Source: Octadecabacter algicola (GTDB lineage Bacteria; Pseudomonadota; Alphaproteobacteria; Rhodobacterales; Rhodobacteraceae). Taken from it: a stretch of DNA of 64,000 nucleotides. Below the pieces are notes generated by a model. It had not been told where the DNA came from and did no database searches. It was given only the letters and a program-made list of their open reading frames with translations. The position numbers and the translations under genes were made by a program. The stretch spans positions 868,001 to 932,000 of the forward strand of contig NZ_JAKGAR010000001.1 of the NCBI RefSeq assembly GCF_021532625.1, in the 5' to 3' direction. Shown here in pieces: positions 8,004-24,209 of this stretch (position 1 is the first letter of the stretch; every line of letters begins with the position of its first letter).

Positions 8004-9233
8004 ATGACAGGTGAATGGATCATTTTCGGGCTAATCTGTGCAGCACTACTGGCGCTCGCTGTTTTGGCAATGTTTGGACCTATGTGGCGCACGCGTCTTA
8101 AGGATGCAGAGGGCAAGGTTGATACGGATATCGATATCTACCGCGACCAACTGCGCGAAGTGGATCGTGACTTGGAACGTGGTGTCCTAGACGAGGCTGA
8201 AGCCGCCCGTACCCGCACGGAAATTTCCCGCCGCCTTTTGGCTGCAGACGCTGGCGCGCGAAGCGAAGCACAAGATGCGCCGCGCACCGCCAGTCGCACT
8301 GTTGCCGCTGTGTTGAGCATCGGGTTGATTGGTGCTGCCGCGGGCCTTTACTTCTCGCTTGGGGCCTTTGGGTATGGCGACGTGCCCCGCGCTGTGCGTC
8401 TGGCCGCATCAGAAGAACGCCGCGCTGAACGCCCTCTTCAGCTTGAGGCGGAAGCCGCAAACCCGATACTGGACGCTATCACACAGGCCGAGCCGGAAAC
8501 CGCTGAAATCCTACAAGCGCTGCGCGGTGCCACTTTTGAGCGCCCCGACGACATCCAAGGCTGGGCCTATCTTGCACAGGTCGAAGCGAGCATTGGCAAC
8601 ATGCAACGCGCCGCCCGCGCTCAAGAACGCACCATTTCAATGTTGGGCGACACCGCCACAAACGAAGATTACGTCCGCCTACTGGATTTCCTTGTCATCG
8701 GAACGCGTGGCTATGTCTCTCCGGAGGCGGAAACGATTGCGCTGACAATCCTACGCCGCGACCCGACCAACCTGCCCGCGCTTTATTACGCCGGCCTGAT
8801 GTATGCCCAAAACGACCGGCCAGATCGCGCCTTTGATCTGTGGCGCCGAGTGGTTGAAGGTGGGGATCAATCCATCTTTCATTGGCGCCTTGCCGCCAGC
8901 CAGATTGAAGATGTCGCCGCGCAATTGGCGATTGATTATGCGCTACCCGATCAGCGCGGCCCGTCGGCTGAAGACCTTGAAGCCGCCGAAGATATGGCCC
9001 CTGAAGATCGTCAAGCGATGATCCAAGGTATGGTCAGCCAGTTGGCCGATCGTCTTGCGACCGAAGGCGGCCCACCCCAAGATTGGGCCCGGTTGATTTC
9101 GTCTCTCATGGTGTTGGGTGAAGAAGATACCGCTCGCACGATCTTGGCAGAAGCCGAACTCGCGTTTGGCGGGGATGTGCAGGCCGTGGGCATCGTGCGC
9201 GCCGCCGCGAGAGAAGCAGGCCTGATCGAATGA
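8004..9233 (+). CDS. ccmI: Cytochrome c maturation protein CcmI
   Basis: 409 aa from the ATG at 8004. CcmI is the membrane chaperone that delivers apocytochrome c to the haem ligation complex. The N-terminal domain has a first transmembrane helix (about 5-24), a soluble loop with the family's IYRDQLREVDRDLERGVLDEAEAARTR (in part), and a second helix near 95-115. The periplasmic C-terminal region is made of TPR-like helices, for example IQGWAYLAQVEASIGNMQRA and LPALYYAGLMYAQNDRP. A start at 7956 would add a basic 16-residue extension and is less likely. The stop overlaps ruvX by ATGA. Confidence 0.88.
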   Translation: MTGEWIIFGLICAALLALAVLAMFGPMWRTRLKDAEGKVDTDIDIYRDQLREVDRDLERGVLDEAEAARTRTEISRRLLAADAGARSEAQDAPRTASRTVAAVLSIGLIGAAAGLYFSLGAFGYGDVPRAVRLAASEERRAERPLQLEAEAANPILDAITQAEPETAEILQALRGATFERPDDIQGWAYLAQVEASIGNMQRAARAQERTISMLGDTATNEDYVRLLDFLVIGTRGYVSPEAETIALTILRRDPTNLPALYYAGLMYAQNDRPDRAFDLWRRVVEGGDQSIFHWRLAASQIEDVAAQLAIDYALPDQRGPSAEDLEAAEDMAPEDRQAMIQGMVSQLADRLATEGGPPQDWARLISSLMVLGEEDTARTILAEAELAFGGDVQAVGIVRAAAREAGLIE

Positions 9234-9706
9234 TTTTTGAAGACCCCATTGATTTCGCCGCCGCCCTGCCCAGCTATGCGCCCCTTACTGGGCTGGACCT
9301 TGGCACCAAGACAATTGGTGTTGCCGTGTCTGATGCCGGACACATGATCGCAACGCCATTGGAGACGATCAAGCGCAGTAAGTTTCAGGCGGATGCAGCG
9401 GCATTGCTGAAAATCATTGAGCATCGCCAAATTGCGGGCATCGTTCTTGGCCTGCCGCGCAATATGGATGGCTCTGAAGGGCCGCGCGCGCAATCCACAC
9501 GCGCCTTTGCCCGAAATTTGACGGGGCTAACAGATCTGCCGATCACCTATTGGGATGAACGTCTGTCCACGGTTATGGCTGAACGCGCCCTGCTTGAGGC
9601 GGATACCTCACGCAAACGCCGCGCCGAAGTGATCGATCACGTCGCGGCTGGCGTGATACTTCAGGGGCTTCTGGACCGCCTACGAAACCTCAAGACCGCA
9701 TCATGA
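9230..9706 (+). CDS. ruvX: Putative pre-16S rRNA nuclease / Holliday junction resolvase YqgF
   Basis: 158 aa, standard length for the YqgF/RuvX family, which adopts an RNase H fold. GLDLGTKTIGVAVSD at the N-terminus contains the first catalytic Asp. GLPRNMDGSEGPRA is the family G-x-P loop. YWDERLSTVMAE holds the conserved Glu, and EVIDHVAAGVILQG holds the C-terminal catalytic Asp. In bacteria it takes part in maturation of the 16S rRNA 5' end and has been linked to recombination. The start overlaps ccmI and the end overlaps the DUF1289 gene, each by ATGA, so the three genes are co-translated. Confidence 0.93.
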   Translation: MIFEDPIDFAAALPSYAPLTGLDLGTKTIGVAVSDAGHMIATPLETIKRSKFQADAAALLKIIEHRQIAGIVLGLPRNMDGSEGPRAQSTRAFARNLTGLTDLPITYWDERLSTVMAERALLEADTSRKRRAEVIDHVAAGVILQGLLDRLRNLKTAS

Positions 9707-18684: not shown

Positions 18685-19326
18685 TTATTTTTTTGGTGTT
18701 TTCCGGTAGAACCGCGCATTTGCCTGAACAAACTCTTCAAGTATTTTGCCGAGTCCACCCAACTGGCGGCCCTTCAGATATAGATAACCCGAAAACGCAC
18801 CGATTGCAGCCCCAATGGCGTCCACAATCAAGTCCTGCATCGTGTCGTCGAGTCCGGATTTTTGCATGTTCATCCCAAAGAGTGAGTCCATCGAATATTC
18901 AAAAATTTCCCATAAGCCGCCAAGAGACATGCCGACACAAAACGCCAGCGTCGCAAGTGCCCATGCAGGGGCCGCGTAGCGGTCGCCTTCAAACAGCATG
19001 AAAATCAACAAAAAGCCCATAGCGCCAAAACTAAGGGCGGACATGAAGTGCAGCACGACATCCCACCACCAAAACTTTTCGTAAAAGTCGCCTACCTCGC
19101 CCAAGAACAAGGTCGCAAAGATAAATACGACGATCGAAGCCAATACCGTACGCGGCAAAGATACCCCAAAGAAACGCGCGAACCGACTTGGCAGGAACGT
19201 CAGCCCCAAGGTGACAGAGGCCACAAAGATTGCCGCCAAATTTTGCGTCAGGACACCCGTAAAGATTTCCACGCCAAGCACCGCTTGGATCGCCAATACG
19301 ATATAGTTCGATGTTGTTTTGGGCAT
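18685..19326 (-). CDS. YjdF/DUF2238-like membrane protein
   Basis: 213 aa with about five to six hydrophobic helices. The helix pairs WWWDVVLHFMSALSFG and SLGGLWEIFEYSMDS, followed by SGLDDTMQDLIVDAIGA, match the pattern of the YjdF-type (DUF2238) membrane family. That family has a conserved D..LHF, a W-E-I-x-E motif and a D...D helix. No function is established. The gene stands alone on the minus strand, and its start lies close to the divergent EEP-family gene. Confidence 0.75.
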   Translation of the reverse strand: MPKTTSNYIVLAIQAVLGVEIFTGVLTQNLAAIFVASVTLGLTFLPSRFARFFGVSLPRTVLASIVVFIFATLFLGEVGDFYEKFWWWDVVLHFMSALSFGAMGFLLIFMLFEGDRYAAPAWALATLAFCVGMSLGGLWEIFEYSMDSLFGMNMQKSGLDDTMQDLIVDAIGAAIGAFSGYLYLKGRQLGGLGKILEEFVQANARFYRKTPKK

Positions 19327-19366
19327 GGCACTACATTTCTGTCGTCTGAGCCCTAATATAGATTAT

Positions 19367-20077
19367 ATGATGAAAAACGCACCCCTTCGATTGGCCAGCT
19401 ATAACATCCGTGCGGGGCTCGGCATGGATCTGCGCCGCGACCCTTTGCGGGTTCTGGACGCAATTGCCTCGTTTGATGCAGACATCGTCGCCCTACAAGA
19501 GGCCGATTTTCGCACAGGTAAACGGCCAACCGCCCTGCCGCGTGATGCAATCCAAGAACGAACGTCCCTTGTTCCTTTGCCCGTTGCAGAGAATGGAGTG
19601 AGTTTGGGTTGGCATGGGATTGCGCTGCTCGCACGACCCAATCTGGTCGCACAACAGATACATCGCTACCCTTTGCCAGGGTTAGAACCACGCGGTGCCG
19701 TCGCCGTTGACCTGCCAGACTTACGCATCGTCGGTGTTCACCTTGGACTGCTGCGTCATTCACGCCGTGCACAACTGGATCATATCCGAGAAGAACTGGA
19801 CGCCCTGCCCGAACGGCCTACTGTGATTTTAGGGGACTTCAACGAATGGTCTCGAAAGGTCGGATTGGGGCGTCTCGCGCGGCGCTATACCATCCTGACA
19901 CCGGGGCGAACGTTTCCAGCTAGCTTACCGCTCGGCGCATTGGACCGCGTTGCACATTGCTCTCGTCTATCTGTCCGAATGCTTGATATTCCCCAAAAGG
20001 CTAAGGGCAGACACGCGTCAGACCACCTCCCGATATTGGCAGAGGTCGAACGAAAGGAAACCGTAACGGCAGGCTAA
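19367..20077 (+). CDS. Endonuclease/exonuclease/phosphatase family protein
   Basis: 236 aa from the ATG at 19367. The EEP catalytic signature is complete: LASYNIRAGLG (Asn), VALQEADF (metal-binding Glu), GVHLGLL, ILGDFNEWSR (Asp and Asn), and the terminal ASDHLPILAE (Asp-His pair). Small members without extra domains include phosphodiesterases acting on nucleic acids, lipids or sugar phosphates. Substrate unknown. The frame opens at 19319, which would overlap the neighbour's start, so the ATG at 19367 (or 19370) is preferred. Confidence 0.88.
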   Translation: MMKNAPLRLASYNIRAGLGMDLRRDPLRVLDAIASFDADIVALQEADFRTGKRPTALPRDAIQERTSLVPLPVAENGVSLGWHGIALLARPNLVAQQIHRYPLPGLEPRGAVAVDLPDLRIVGVHLGLLRHSRRAQLDHIREELDALPERPTVILGDFNEWSRKVGLGRLARRYTILTPGRTFPASLPLGALDRVAHCSRLSVRMLDIPQKAKGRHASDHLPILAEVERKETVTAG

Positions 20078-20223: not shown

Positions 20224-21195
20224 CTAAAGAAGCGTCTCGTGGAGCGGACGTCTGGCGCGGGTTGGCGCAGGGCCAGACGGAACACCAAACCGAATAGCTT
20301 GGATAAGGCGTTGGCCTGCGGGGATCCCAAAACGGTCGCAGGTTTCTTGATGGGTTTGCGCACAATCAGACAACGCGGCCATAGGCCAGCCCGCCAAACC
20401 AAGCGACGCAGCCTCAAGACACAAACGCATATATGCTCTGCCAGTAATGACGGGATTTTCGACCTCATTACGATGAAATAGCGCTATTATGGGCGATTTC
20501 AGAGTCAAATTGGATTCCGATGTCAGCTTCTTGGTTTGACGCAAGAGCGACAGGATCTTCCAGAACTTGATCAGAACAAAAGGCACGGCAAAGGCTTCGG
20601 TCTTGGTCATATGCATAGATGCGCGATCCATACCATCCAGCCCAGCCCGCGGGTGCTGGGGATTAAGACGCATCCAGCTGACCAGCTCGCGGCGAAACGC
20701 GGCCGCTTGCATTATTTCATGGCTGGCAAAATCGTTTCGTTCAGCAAGCCAAGCGCGCGCTGGCTCATCAAAGACCAGACGCGTGTCGTCACGGGTCCAG
20801 CCAAACAATTGAACAGGTTGATCTGCGAAACATGCCCGCCATGTGAACCGGTTCTCGAGCTGATTGTGCAAGCCGTCTACATCGCCCTGCGACAACGTTA
20901 AATGCGCCACCGCAACAAGACCTGCCCCATGAGATGTGTCGCCTTCTGTCAGCGTGACATGCGCAGCGATGTGATGCGCCGACAGTGCCAAAACCATCGC
21001 TTCGAGCACAGCACCGCAAGACAGCGCCGCATCGCGCCCAGATGGGTCCCCGACCGCAAGTCCTACGTTTGTGTCACAGAACAAGGACAGCACATCACCG
21101 TCGCGCACCCAGCGGGCCGGTTGTGTGTTGTGCACGGTTGGCGCAAGGCCAGCTCGCATGACGCATTGTTCAATTATGTCCTGGGATATTATCAT
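20224..21195 (-). CDS. Acg-like nitroreductase family flavoprotein
   Basis: 323 aa. APTVHNTQPARW near the N-terminus and GDPSGRDAALSCGAVLEAM are the characteristic blocks of the Acg-type branch of the FMN-dependent nitroreductase superfamily. The C-terminal RAYMRLCLEAASLGLAGWPM matches the second flavin-binding repeat. Some Acg-type proteins sequester FMN rather than reduce nitro compounds. I start at the ATG at 21195, one base past the stop of the upstream membrane protein gene; the TTG at 21204 is the alternative. It is the last gene of a four-gene coupled operon with an E1-like enzyme, which suggests a role in modifying the same unknown substrate. Confidence 0.82.
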   Translation of the reverse strand: MIISQDIIEQCVMRAGLAPTVHNTQPARWVRDGDVLSLFCDTNVGLAVGDPSGRDAALSCGAVLEAMVLALSAHHIAAHVTLTEGDTSHGAGLVAVAHLTLSQGDVDGLHNQLENRFTWRACFADQPVQLFGWTRDDTRLVFDEPARAWLAERNDFASHEIMQAAAFRRELVSWMRLNPQHPRAGLDGMDRASMHMTKTEAFAVPFVLIKFWKILSLLRQTKKLTSESNLTLKSPIIALFHRNEVENPVITGRAYMRLCLEAASLGLAGWPMAALSDCAQTHQETCDRFGIPAGQRLIQAIRFGVPSGPAPTRARRPLHETLL

Positions 21196-21196
21196 A

Positions 21197-22396
21197 CTAA
21201 TCAATCTGCCGCACTGACATCAGGCGCGCCATACGCTGGACCGCAGCCAATTCCAATTCCGCCCGAGGCGAGGTCGCCAGCGACGGCATCGACAGTGCCA
21301 CAAGGGTAAGCGGCGCATCATCTGCGATCAGAATGTGGCTCGCATCAAACAGGTGGAAAAGATGTGCTATATGATCGCCTTCGGGCCCGTCCTGAAACGG
21401 CGGGTCAGATCGGCGCAACACCGGTGCTCGGCCGAAGATATGGCGTAAAACAGGTCTGTCAAAATCCTTGAGCTGCGGGTCCGAGATGAGCGCTGCGCCT
21501 TCAACCAAAGGATGCGCCTGAAGTCCACGTAAGAAGACCAACGCGTCGCCAGATCGATCATCTGCGATGTGGCGTAGCAGTGTCTGAGATTGTTCTTCTG
21601 CCCGCAGTGTCTGGGCTTCAATGAACAACACGGCAACCAGTACAGCAGCCAATATGACTACAAAGGTCAGAATCGTCGTGTCGCGATCCATTGCGGCAAT
21701 ATAAGCAACGACGCCACCTGACAGCCCTGCACCAATAACAATCGCTAGAAACGACACCAGCGGTGCACGGTGCTGCGCCTGCGCCCGCCCCAAGGACACC
21801 GCCAACCAACACAAGAACAGCACCCCAAGGGCGGATATTTGTGCCGGAAGTTTCAGATAAAGGAACAGGAAATCCGCGGCCGCCAAGGGGATCAACAACA
21901 GCAACGACAACGCCAAACGTTCAACGGTCTGGTTTTCGGCGACAGAGAGGCTGTCTTTGTCTCGTGTCAGGACCAACCACGCGCCAATCCCGAACCCGCT
22001 GAGCTGAAATACCAACAGACCCACAAGACGCGCAGGGTCGATGCTGTCCGACCACCACAAAGACAGGACGGCAAAGGCAGTAGTGCCGCCGCCAACCCAG
22101 ATTTTGGCCCATCTAGGCGCATGGCGCCGCAAAAGCCCTTCGGATAGGAGCAGGACCGACAGTGGAATAAGGCTAGCGCCTAGCAGGATGAAAAATCGAA
22201 AGACCTCCCACCCCGTGAGGACCAGCAACGCACGCCCTGCAAACAACATGATCATAACGCGCAGCCCCATCAGGAACCGACGGTTCAAAGGCGCCCATGG
22301 ATCACGTGCGCAGATGACACGCTGCAAAATAAACACCCCCGCCAATGCGGCAAGCGACAGGAACAGATTGACTGTATCAGCGGCCACAAGCGTCAC
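21197..22396 (-). CDS. Polytopic membrane protein with C-terminal cytosolic domain
   Basis: 399 aa. About nine hydrophobic helices span residues 8-260 (near 8-24, 41-60, 66-86, 98-114, 122-142, 159-181, 185-203, 212-234, 241-259). A short helical linker rich in Glu and Gln (EAQTLRAEEQSQTLLRH) then leads to a soluble domain of about 120 aa, with EGAALISDPQLKDF and HILIADDAPLTLVALS. The layout resembles a membrane receptor with a small sensor-like module, but no kinase, cyclase or ATPase motif follows and I do not recognise the family. It overlaps the E1-like gene by ATGA and nearly touches the nitroreductase gene. Confidence 0.7.
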   Translation of the reverse strand: MTLVAADTVNLFLSLAALAGVFILQRVICARDPWAPLNRRFLMGLRVMIMLFAGRALLVLTGWEVFRFFILLGASLIPLSVLLLSEGLLRRHAPRWAKIWVGGGTTAFAVLSLWWSDSIDPARLVGLLVFQLSGFGIGAWLVLTRDKDSLSVAENQTVERLALSLLLLIPLAAADFLFLYLKLPAQISALGVLFLCWLAVSLGRAQAQHRAPLVSFLAIVIGAGLSGGVVAYIAAMDRDTTILTFVVILAAVLVAVLFIEAQTLRAEEQSQTLLRHIADDRSGDALVFLRGLQAHPLVEGAALISDPQLKDFDRPVLRHIFGRAPVLRRSDPPFQDGPEGDHIAHLFHLFDASHILIADDAPLTLVALSMPSLATSPRAELELAAVQRMARLMSVRQID

Positions 22397-23259
22397 GACA
22401 TCAACCCATTCAGAAAGCGCCGCACGATTGGACGCATCAAGGCCGCAACAAAGGCTGGCTTGGGCCGTTCAACACGCGCCTTGTAGGGGTTGAAAAAATA
22501 GCCACGGTTGTCGGTGCCATGCGGTCGGCCAAGAATTGCATTCACTACCTCATAGCACATCAACTGGCCCGTCGTTATGACCATTGGTCCGAACGACATG
22601 CGAGAACGTTTGCCCGCCACAACATCACCAACGATATCCAGATCAATGTAATTTCGAGATGAGGAATGAATTACAACCCATTCTGATTCCTTGATAAAAG
22701 CCTGGGACCTTTGATCATCGGACACAGCATCCCAAGACGTGTCATTCGTCGGATAACCTAGTCGTTCTTCATGGGGTGTGTCACTGGCCAAAGTGACATA
22801 AATCGATGGTAGAGGCGACGCATAAGCGTCAATCACAGTTTTCCCAAGGGCGCGCGCACGACGATAAAGCAGCAGAGATGCGCCAAGATCATCAGTCCCG
22901 TTCACAACAATTACCGAGCGGGTGATCAGGTCGTCTACATGTTTGGTCCAATCGGCGTGATGGACCTCAACCTCGATTTCTGGATTGATCTGTCGCGCGA
23001 TCTCGGCAGTGACTTCGGCTTTGTGGCCGTCAATCGTGTGGGTGAACGCGAACACCTGACGGTTAAGGTTACTAACCTCAAACTCATCCAGATCCGCGAT
23101 GATAAGTTTACCTACCCCAGCGCGAACAAGGCCTAGGATGCAGGCCCCGCCCATTCCGCCCGTGCCGCACACGAAAACCGTCGCGCCGAGCAGTTTGTCC
23201 TGCTCGGCCCGCGTGACAAAACCAATGTTGCGGGTGGTGAATTCTTCATACTCAAACAT
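22393..23259 (-). CDS. E1/ThiF/MoeB-like adenylating enzyme
   Basis: 288 aa from the ATG at 23259. It has the E1-like adenylation fold: VFVCGTGGMGGACILGLVRAG (ATP-binding glycine loop at 32-38), ADLDEFEVSNLNRQVF with the Asp and Arg/Gln of the ATP site (56-68), Lys80 in the GHKAEV helix, and VNGTDDLGAS (120-128) for the conserved Asp. The family adenylates a C-terminal carboxylate. Only three Cys are present (31, 40, 235), none at the usual transthiolation position after VIDAYASPLPS, and no CxxC zinc pairs are seen. It probably activates without forming the classic thioester. Start and stop are coupled to its neighbours (TGATG and ATGA). Confidence 0.85.
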   Translation of the reverse strand: MFEYEEFTTRNIGFVTRAEQDKLLGATVFVCGTGGMGGACILGLVRAGVGKLIIADLDEFEVSNLNRQVFAFTHTIDGHKAEVTAEIARQINPEIEVEVHHADWTKHVDDLITRSVIVVNGTDDLGASLLLYRRARALGKTVIDAYASPLPSIYVTLASDTPHEERLGYPTNDTSWDAVSDDQRSQAFIKESEWVVIHSSSRNYIDLDIVGDVVAGKRSRMSFGPMVITTGQLMCYEVVNAILGRPHGTDNRGYFFNPYKARVERPKPAFVAALMRPIVRRFLNGLMS

Positions 23260-24209
23260 CACTTGTCCCCTTTTGCGGGGCGCAGGATCGAAAACGGACG
23301 CGTGCTGTCGGACCAATACAACACCGGAAGTATCAATCGACGCAGCGCCACATAAAGGCCCGCCCCGATAACGCTCAACACCGCTGTGCGTGGCACTTCG
23401 CGGGTTAAATAGCGGCGGATCGCGGGCAAATCCATCTTGCCAAGCTGCAGCACATCATCCCCGCGTTCGTAATCCAACTCGACCTCACAAAACTCGTTGA
23501 ACTGAGCATCACGATGTTTCGGAGCGTCTTCCCATGTCTTTTTCAGATCATCCGAACCGCCTGTGTAGGCGTTGGTGATGACAAAGCGGTCTTCGTCAAA
23601 TTCGGCGTCAGCGCCCACACCAAAAACATGGCGGTGGTTCGCCATGATCCGGCGCGCCATTAATAGGTGGTTCAGCGTGCGCCTGTCAGCTTCGGGTTTC
23701 GGCCAAATATCGGAAAACATCTCAGAGACCATGCCAACCACGGCCGGCACTTGGGTTACATTTGAAATCCAAAGTGGGCGAAATTGATTGCGGGTGAACA
23801 GCAAGAAACATGTCAGACCATACAGAACCCAAGACAAGCCACCCGAGCGCTGATCTGGGTCCACCATGACGAGACCAAGGTGCAACACATCGACAGGTTC
23901 AGGCTGGACCTCAACGGTCATGATCGCCAGCGCATTAAAGGCAATGGGCGTGCCGTCCTTTAGGGTAACAAGGGTGACGATGGTGTCGCGCAACCTGTCG
24001 CGATCGCCCGAAAATACGCCATAGGTCAAATCGCCCTCATCCAACGTCTTACTGGCGATCTGGCGCAAGTCCGACGTCAGGGTTTGCAGGTCTTGATCTG
24101 ACATCCAGCGACCGGGGCGTTCCAAAATACGCACCACACGATCCCGCCCATTGCGCATCGTCACGTCCATATAGGCATGGCGAAGTGATTTTAAGATGGG
24201 TCCGAGCAT
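23259..24209 (-). CDS. GNAT-like acyltransferase with C-terminal membrane anchor
   Basis: 316 aa. Residues about 75-165 look like a GNAT fold: TLVTLKDGTPIAFNALAIMTVE, then HLGLVMVDPDQRSGGLSWVLYG, in which VDPDQRSGG resembles the acyl-CoA pyrophosphate loop, then LWISNVTQVPAVVGMVSEMF. A hydrophobic segment near residues 275-298 (AVLSVIGAGLYVALRRLILP) would anchor the C-terminus in the membrane. The acyl donor and acceptor are unknown. It is the first gene of the four-gene operon, and its stop overlaps the ATG of the E1-like gene by one base (TGATG). Confidence 0.65.
   Translation of the reverse strand: MLGPILKSLRHAYMDVTMRNGRDRVVRILERPGRWMSDQDLQTLTSDLRQIASKTLDEGDLTYGVFSGDRDRLRDTIVTLVTLKDGTPIAFNALAIMTVEVQPEPVDVLHLGLVMVDPDQRSGGLSWVLYGLTCFLLFTRNQFRPLWISNVTQVPAVVGMVSEMFSDIWPKPEADRRTLNHLLMARRIMANHRHVFGVGADAEFDEDRFVITNAYTGGSDDLKKTWEDAPKHRDAQFNEFCEVELDYERGDDVLQLGKMDLPAIRRYLTREVPRTAVLSVIGAGLYVALRRLILPVLYWSDSTRPFSILRPAKGDK

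Follow-up and report, generated by a model that had tools for sequence, protein, structure and literature searches.

A putative acyltransferase and membrane protein pair with accessory ThiF-type and Acg-like enzymes in Octadecabacter algicola: a possible alphaproteobacterial variant of acyl-oxazolone-type pathways

What could a putative acyltransferase, a ThiF-type adenylating enzyme, a membrane protein and a flavin enzyme be making together? The question is raised by a stretch of 64,000 nucleotides from Octadecabacter algicola (hereafter the window; contig NZ_JAKGAR010000001.1, positions 868,001 to 932,000 of the forward strand), on the minus strand of which four genes, P1, P2, P3 and P4, follow one another in tight coupling from position 24209 to 20224. 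The answer that we propose, with about even confidence, is a membrane-associated pathway for both making and tailoring an amine or amino acid that bears a fatty acyl group, working like the acyl-oxazolone pathways oxz, tyz and trz. The gene structure, the predicted folds, the kept adenylation residues of P2, the constancy of the P1–P3 pair and the co-occurrence of P2 (also termed E1) with a further acyltransferase, G2, are directly established.

Four coupled genes and their products

The tight junctions can be read directly from the sequence. P1 and P2 overlap in a TGATG at 23259, P2 and P3 share the four bases GTGA, and a single base separates P3 from P4 (TAG-T-ATG). The first-pass annotation had likewise described four coupled minus-strand genes, and all four open reading frames (ORFs) lie at 20224–24209; the TGATG and the 1-bp gap were read correctly, whereas its ATGA is in fact GTGA, with GTG as the start codon of P3.

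P2 (22393–23259, minus strand, 288 amino acids) is a ThiF/E1-like adenylating enzyme (PF00899, expectation value E 1.1e-34). In a 13-row alignment it keeps the GxGGxG glycine loop together with D58, N64, R67, K80 and D123, which are the adenylation residues of MoeB and ThiF enzymes. An Asp of the ThiF adenylation motif is named in PMC12856293, according to which cyclisation by TrzS needs D217 (TrzS numbering). No CxxC (zinc-site) pair is present in P2, against two in each of three sulfur-carrier E1 references (ThiF, UbaA and MoeB). Across nine aligned P2 homologues just one cysteine, C31 next to the loop that binds the nucleotide, is invariant, and a further homologue (L168) has no cysteine at that position.

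For comparison with the oxz-type ThiF enzymes, four proxies (L183-L186) were picked by their match to the PRK14852 family, a search at E ≤ 1e-30 in 249 genomes, of which 4 matched, all below the family cut-off. Two of these loci (L183 and L185) carry a TIGR03694 acyltransferase ORF, and L185 a nitroreductase-like ORF as well. P2 and the proxies have in common an N-terminal stretch resembling RNIG-x-V-T-x-x-EQ, and three of the four proxies are, like P2, without CxxC. In a 25-row ThiF tree the P2 clade is strong, as is the PRK14852-like clade (with a Rhodococcus ThiF added), and both are placed away from MoeB, MoeZ, UbaA and ThiF (94/89, a non-starred branch), in a region that also holds tcdA and other long branches.

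P4 (20224–21195, minus strand, 323 amino acids) is an Acg-like nitroreductase-fold flavin enzyme (PF00881, E 1.5e-7). Its best NCBIfam match is the Acg family NF047509 (136.8 bits, E 1.1e-39, below the 199-bit cut-off), compared with 42.2 bits for the Rv1355c family, and the single relative of its profile in the PDB at E ≤ 1e-3 is the solved Acg structure 2ymv (E 2.9e-15). P4 thus resembles the Acg/Rv3131-type flavin mononucleotide (FMN) oxidoreductases in both matches and differs from them in falling below the family cut-off and in sharing an operon with a ThiF gene. P2 and P4 each match part of the ThiF–nitroreductase fusion families PRK14851 and Rv1355c, far under the cut-off.

P1 (23259–24209, minus strand, 316 amino acids) is a putative GNAT-fold acyltransferase. 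It has no Pfam match above cut-off (Acetyltransf_1 at E 0.21), and its AlphaFold2 model (predicted local distance difference test score, pLDDT, 82.0; 18 sequences) has a GNAT core. Foldseek matched this model to 29 PDB entries at E ≤ 1e-3, among which acetyltransferases of the NatD and PA3270 types rank first. A close relationship of P1 to FeeM-type synthases is unsupported, as the P1 profile gave no plausible PDB relative, and FeeM is absent among the 50 Foldseek matches listed of 817, which name NatD, PA3270-like and other GNAT proteins.

P3 (21197–22396, minus strand, 399 amino acids) is a membrane protein with nine helices, one of them (95–111) weakly hydrophobic, and a C-terminal alpha/beta domain in its AlphaFold2 model (pLDDT 88.3, 32 sequences). 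No Pfam family is matched above cut-off, and sub-threshold signals occur for 7TMR-DISM_7TM (1 of 32 family members, E 0.0066) and DUF5831 (1 of 32, E 0.023). The fold has no PDB match at E ≤ 1e-3, the best being seven-transmembrane (7TM) receptors at a non-significant E of about 0.01, and a profile search against the PDB likewise gave nothing significant. Of the two membrane proteins announced by the first-pass annotation, P3 is borne out by the nine helices of its model, while attachment of P1 to the membrane is plausible from a single hydrophobic helix, the only one it has, near its C-terminus (residues 276–294).

A constant pair, accessory enzymes and a fifth gene

Relatives of the operon were collected by a profile scan with the P1 alignment, of which the best 80 of 183 were kept; they span Octadecabacter, Pseudooctadecabacter, Yoonia, Loktanella, Ruegeria, Mesorhizobium, Rhizobium, Devosia, Hyphomicrobium, Bradyrhizobium and others. 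Apart from L087, L101 and L133, which end too early, 77 of the loci are informative, and in all 77 P3 stands directly after P1 or with E1 alone in between. P1–P3 is the constant core, and E1 and Acg are accessory. The gene orders are P1-P3 (37 loci), P1-E1-P3-G2-Acg (18), P1-E1-P3-Acg (16), P1-P3-Acg (5) and P1-E1-P3 (1), so the fullest arrangement has five genes and is found in 18 of the 77. Shinella has all five genes in this order, and in Ensifer adhaerens matches to P1, E1, G2 and P4 were found in a search for these four. One of the five P1-P3-Acg loci, L150, has a partial Acg match only (residues 157–319), and in L149 the Acg match is split over two ORFs. The four families of the window occur together in 34 of the informative loci, and this, with the recurrence of P1–P3 in all 77, is more than chance would give. 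A fixed four-gene unit is rejected, because P1–P3 is constant, E1 and Acg are variable, and a fifth member, G2, lies elsewhere in the genome.

A survey of 196 genomes of the taxonomic order (E1 and G2 at E ≤ 1e-40, P4 at E ≤ 1e-15) found P1 intact in 22, with P3 in the same 22, directly after P1 or past E1 alone; E1 is present in nine and P4 in 12, all within those 22. Genome G018 (L085, about 8537-9409) carries a P1 remnant with two stops and no P3 match, which looks like loss of the system. Among the 11 genomes of a Yoonia-like genus (g4), ten hold P1–P3 alone and one (G032) has E1, G2 and P4 at another locus; the pair is downstream of sugar ABC-transporter genes in nine of the 11, and a glycerate-kinase gene comes next in all 11. 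In Yoonia loci such as L067:2337-11685, P1–P3 have genes for a sugar ABC transporter, an FGGY kinase and a TIM-barrel protein on one side and a glycerate-kinase-like (DUF4147/MOFRL) gene on the other. Further afield, the P1 profile gave eight matches in 398 genomes of the phylum, one of them the G018 remnant, all within the class of the window. On a Vibrio plasmid, in the one record examined of three that matched, a ThiF gene directly follows the gene for a distant P1 relative (E 4e-6, identity about 20%), and the P1–ThiF pairing therefore occurs outside the Alphaproteobacteria.

G2 is a protein of about 365 amino acids (PF00583), apparently a two-domain GNAT. The operon of the window is without it, and some 372 kb from the operon the same genome encodes a homologue that is 50% identical to the query (C7:1264200-1265297). 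In the region L170:7198-9941 this gene lies, on the same strand, about 60 bp downstream of a gene of the trimethylamine-methyltransferase family (MttB/MTTB).

The occurrence of E1 and that of G2 are coupled. Among the 196 genomes, exactly the nine that bear E1 have G2; in one of them (G174) the G2 match contains a TGA. It is unlinked to the operon in five of the nine, apparently at one shared place, so that these are not five independent moves, and Octadecabacter dasysiphoniae (G095), of the same genus as the window, is without both E1 and G2. The coupling was then tested in a second set of 49 genomes chosen for P1 out of 59 candidates (nine P1-P3 loci and L129 were left out; ten belong to the 196 as well), with the expectation that where E1 occurs with no linked G2, a G2 gene would be found at another place in the genome, and that where E1 is absent there would be none. 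By locus type, G2 was found in 16/16 genomes with P1-E1-P3-Acg (13 of these 16 being new), 0/5 with P1-P3-Acg, 1/27 with P1-P3 and 0/1 with P1-E1-P3 (L146). The sole P1-P3 genome with G2 is Yoonia sp. F2084L (L109, identical to G032), in which a separate locus (L084, the source of the G2 query) holds E1, G2 and Acg alone as a tight cluster. Counted over whole genomes of this set, G2 is present in all but one of the 18 that have E1 (17) and in none of the 31 that do not (Fisher 2.8e-12, treating genomes as independent despite their kinship), and P4 in 17 of 18 and 5 of 31, respectively. One G2 match, in G569, contains a TAG.

A possible nature of G2 is suggested by a distant relative. A Roseomonas mucosa plasmid protein has 28% identity to the G2 of the window's genome over 93% of the length, and its gene stands between, on the upstream side, two genes for LptF/LptG-family permeases and one of the sterol-desaturase family and, on the downstream side, a nucleotidyltransferase gene. 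In Caulobacter, the ceramide N-acyltransferase (CerS) CC_1154 is numbered between CC_1156/CC_1155, members of the second Lpt gene set, and the nucleotidyltransferase-like CC_1153 (PMC11324152). Since the Roseomonas gene order matches this setting, we call G2 ceramide-synthase-like, a name taken from the gene position of the relative rather than from sequence likeness to CC_1154; G2 itself differs from CerS in co-occurring with a ThiF enzyme and in its own gene context.

The proposed pathway and its alternatives

Pathways in which an acyltransferase, a ThiF enzyme and a nitroreductase-fold oxidase lead to acyl-oxazolones have been described, and the same trio has also been proposed to give N-acyl-dehydroamino acids such as N-acyl-dehydrotyrosines (PMC10404671, PMC12856293, PMC12479983). 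The first-pass annotation had been unable to match the operon to a described system, and these pathways are in fact comparable with it. Like oxzAB of Pseudoalteromonas rubra and tyzACB and trzAS of Mycobacteriales, the genes studied here combine an acyltransferase, a ThiF-type activator with kept adenylation residues and a nitroreductase-fold oxidase. They differ in that P1 and G2 have no match to TIGR03694, the family of the acyltransferases beside the PRK14852-like ThiF proxies, in that the oxidase leans to Acg, and in an additional membrane protein, P3; for the acyltransferases the comparison used these proxies in place of OxzA, TyzA and TrzA themselves. The nasY clusters of stieleriacines and of thalassotalic and kyonggic acids (PMC12479983) are alike in that genes for ThiF and a nitroreductase lie close to that of an N-acyl amino acid synthase, with tight spacing in two producers; unlike here, the available text describes no membrane protein, and the several synthase copies of Stieleria are all of a single kind, in contrast to the dissimilar P1 and G2. 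On our best reading the operon is placed as an alphaproteobacterial variant of the acyltransferase, ThiF cyclase and flavin oxidase pathways (oxz, tyz, trz and nas) with other partners. The word 'Alphaproteobacteria' is absent from the main text of PMC12856293, whose ThiF network comprises 2416 sequences in 24 subclusters, and no description of this alphaproteobacterial gene set was found in the open-licence literature, searched mostly by titles and abstracts and leaving membership of that network aside.

In such a pathway P1 would be kept at the membrane together with P3 and would make or present an acylated amino compound; the Acg-like P4 would oxidize (desaturate) it with FMN; and P2 would adenylate a free carboxylate at the expense of ATP, leading to ring closure of an oxazolone-like kind or to capture. 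The ceramide-synthase-like G2, a presumed N-acyltransferase encoded some 372 kb away, may be the acylating partner of P2; given the E1–G2 link, it is the likeliest source of the acyl group on the P2 substrate. We infer the substrates, the order of the steps and the product by analogy; in the known systems the order itself differs, with cyclisation before desaturation for TrzS and either order for Tyz (PMC12856293). The near-nested gene content (P1–P3 > Acg > E1+G2, being 22 > 12 > 9 in the 196 genomes and 49 > 22 > 17 in the second set, chosen for P1) fits a pathway running from P1–P3 through P4 to E1 and G2, and also fits a function of P1–P3 apart from the rest. A more elaborate version, which we regard as tentative and rather unlikely, would have the five-gene system make a new class of doubly acylated, ring-closed and desaturated aminolipid, with P1–P3 giving the parent lipid, Acg oxidizing it, and ThiF and G2 as a coupled pair finishing it, in the order that the near-nesting suggests. 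The membrane-associated modification pathway with activation and redox chemistry that the first-pass annotation had pictured agrees with the families, folds, residues and conservation, and its gene set was incomplete.

Several observations weigh against the proposed pathway. The P2 clade does not join the PRK14852-like proxies as their sister in the ThiF tree. In a 16-row tree P4 is closer to Acg-like plasmid proteins, some of them beside universal-stress genes, than to the oxz-type oxidase, which is represented by one proxy on a long, biased branch; P4 thus appears to lean towards the Acg-like proteins, and the FDO-A group of PMC10404671 includes TyzC, OxzB and Rv1355c, while Acg falls in FDO-B, with its function stated there to be unknown. 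Because the oxidase leans to Acg and the ThiF placement lacks a sister grouping, membership of the oxz family is not claimed. The TIGR03694 model is matched by neither P1 nor G2, and its cut-off is exceeded by two acyltransferases beside PRK14852-like ThiF. One metagenome-assembled genome (MAG; L146) has E1 without G2 or Acg. Finally, in 37 of the 77 loci P1–P3 is accompanied by none of E1, G2 and Acg, and its role therefore need not be tied to their chemistry.

That last point leads to an alternative that we consider possible, if doubtful, namely that one operon combines two modules: a biosynthetic trio of E1, G2 and Acg, and a separate pair for sensing or signalling, with P1 as the maker of an acylated signal and P3, a receptor-like membrane protein of many helices with a cytosolic domain, as its receiver. 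P1–P3 without the other three also accounts for ten of the 22 P1-bearing genomes of the taxonomic order, the trio forms its own cluster in L084, 28 of 36 loci with P1–P3 alone (leaving out L129) have a glycerate-kinase-like gene nearby, and the sub-threshold Pfam signals of P3 and its loose, non-significant PDB matches, mostly 7TM receptors, would suit a receptor. Such independence is harder to reconcile with the position of E1, which sits between P1 and P3 in 35 of 35 E1-bearing loci, and with the 196 genomes, none of which, at the thresholds used, has E1, G2 or Acg without P1–P3; P3 moreover has no recognised output domain. A modified sphingolipid or long-chain-amine route, in which G2 would genuinely be an enzyme of the ceramide-synthase type, its ceramide-like product being tailored by E1, Acg, P1 and P3, draws on the Roseomonas relative at the ceramide-synthase position with its LptF/LptG-family permeases and nucleotidyltransferase, but at an identity of just 28% we judge it quite unlikely.

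Very improbable, in our estimate, is protein modification by the E1-like enzyme of a ubiquitin-like protein or a ribosomal precursor peptide, as ThiF-type enzymes perform in other systems such as pantocin-type loci. The gaps of 81 bp and 146 bp flanking the operon leave no room, beside or inside it, for a non-overlapping 60-amino-acid precursor gene, in agreement with the first-pass annotation, which had seen no adjoining ubiquitin-like or precursor gene of at least that length; shorter or overlapping ORFs are present around the operon and were not counted as evidence of genes. The CxxC pairs of the three sulfur-carrier references are missing, C31, the only cysteine invariant in the nine homologues, is itself lacking in L168, and the pantocin-type ThiF enzymes lie on the opposite side of the tree across the same non-starred branch. 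With no room, no CxxC pairs and this tree position, such a system was set aside.

Genomic surroundings and wider meaning

Upstream of the operon, 81 bp off on the same strand, lies FdsD (24566–24291), followed by FdhD (25308–24499), both belonging to a cluster for formate dehydrogenase. On the downstream side an endonuclease/phosphatase-family gene (19319–20077), 146 bp off, is convergent. Beyond it, a 213-amino-acid ORF (18685–19326) matches no Pfam or NCBIfam family above cut-off and has a relative near the operon in genome G182. Scans for promoters (3 sites against 2.3 expected) and terminator-like sites (10 against 6.0) were uninformative. In other loci the end of the operon faces a convergent gene like those for di-haem cytochrome c peroxidase/MauG (for example L088:12971-14536); this holds for at least 18 of the 42 loci that lack E1 and 6 of the 35 that have it. 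In Shinella (L166:13258-16656) a gene for an acyl-ACP–phospholipid O-acyltransferase (ACP, acyl carrier protein) is convergent to the operon, and the Rhizobiaceae-group MAG L146 has, at about 15489, a long ORF that resembles it by look only. Elsewhere, a Sinorhizobium plasmid (L191:3474-6291) and a Vibrio plasmid (L173:4463-7349) carry, in identical order, genes for a pantocin-A-family ribosomally synthesized and post-translationally modified peptide, a ThiF enzyme, a 2-oxoglutarate oxygenase and a DMT transporter.

Taken together, these comparisons set an Acg-like flavin enzyme of soil and marine bacteria in the context of a pathway, beside a partner that would activate carboxylates, and they link an acyltransferase that is probably ceramide-synthase-like to a ThiF enzyme. 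They also define a conserved pair of a putative acyltransferase and a membrane protein, the membrane part of which is without a match among solved folds.

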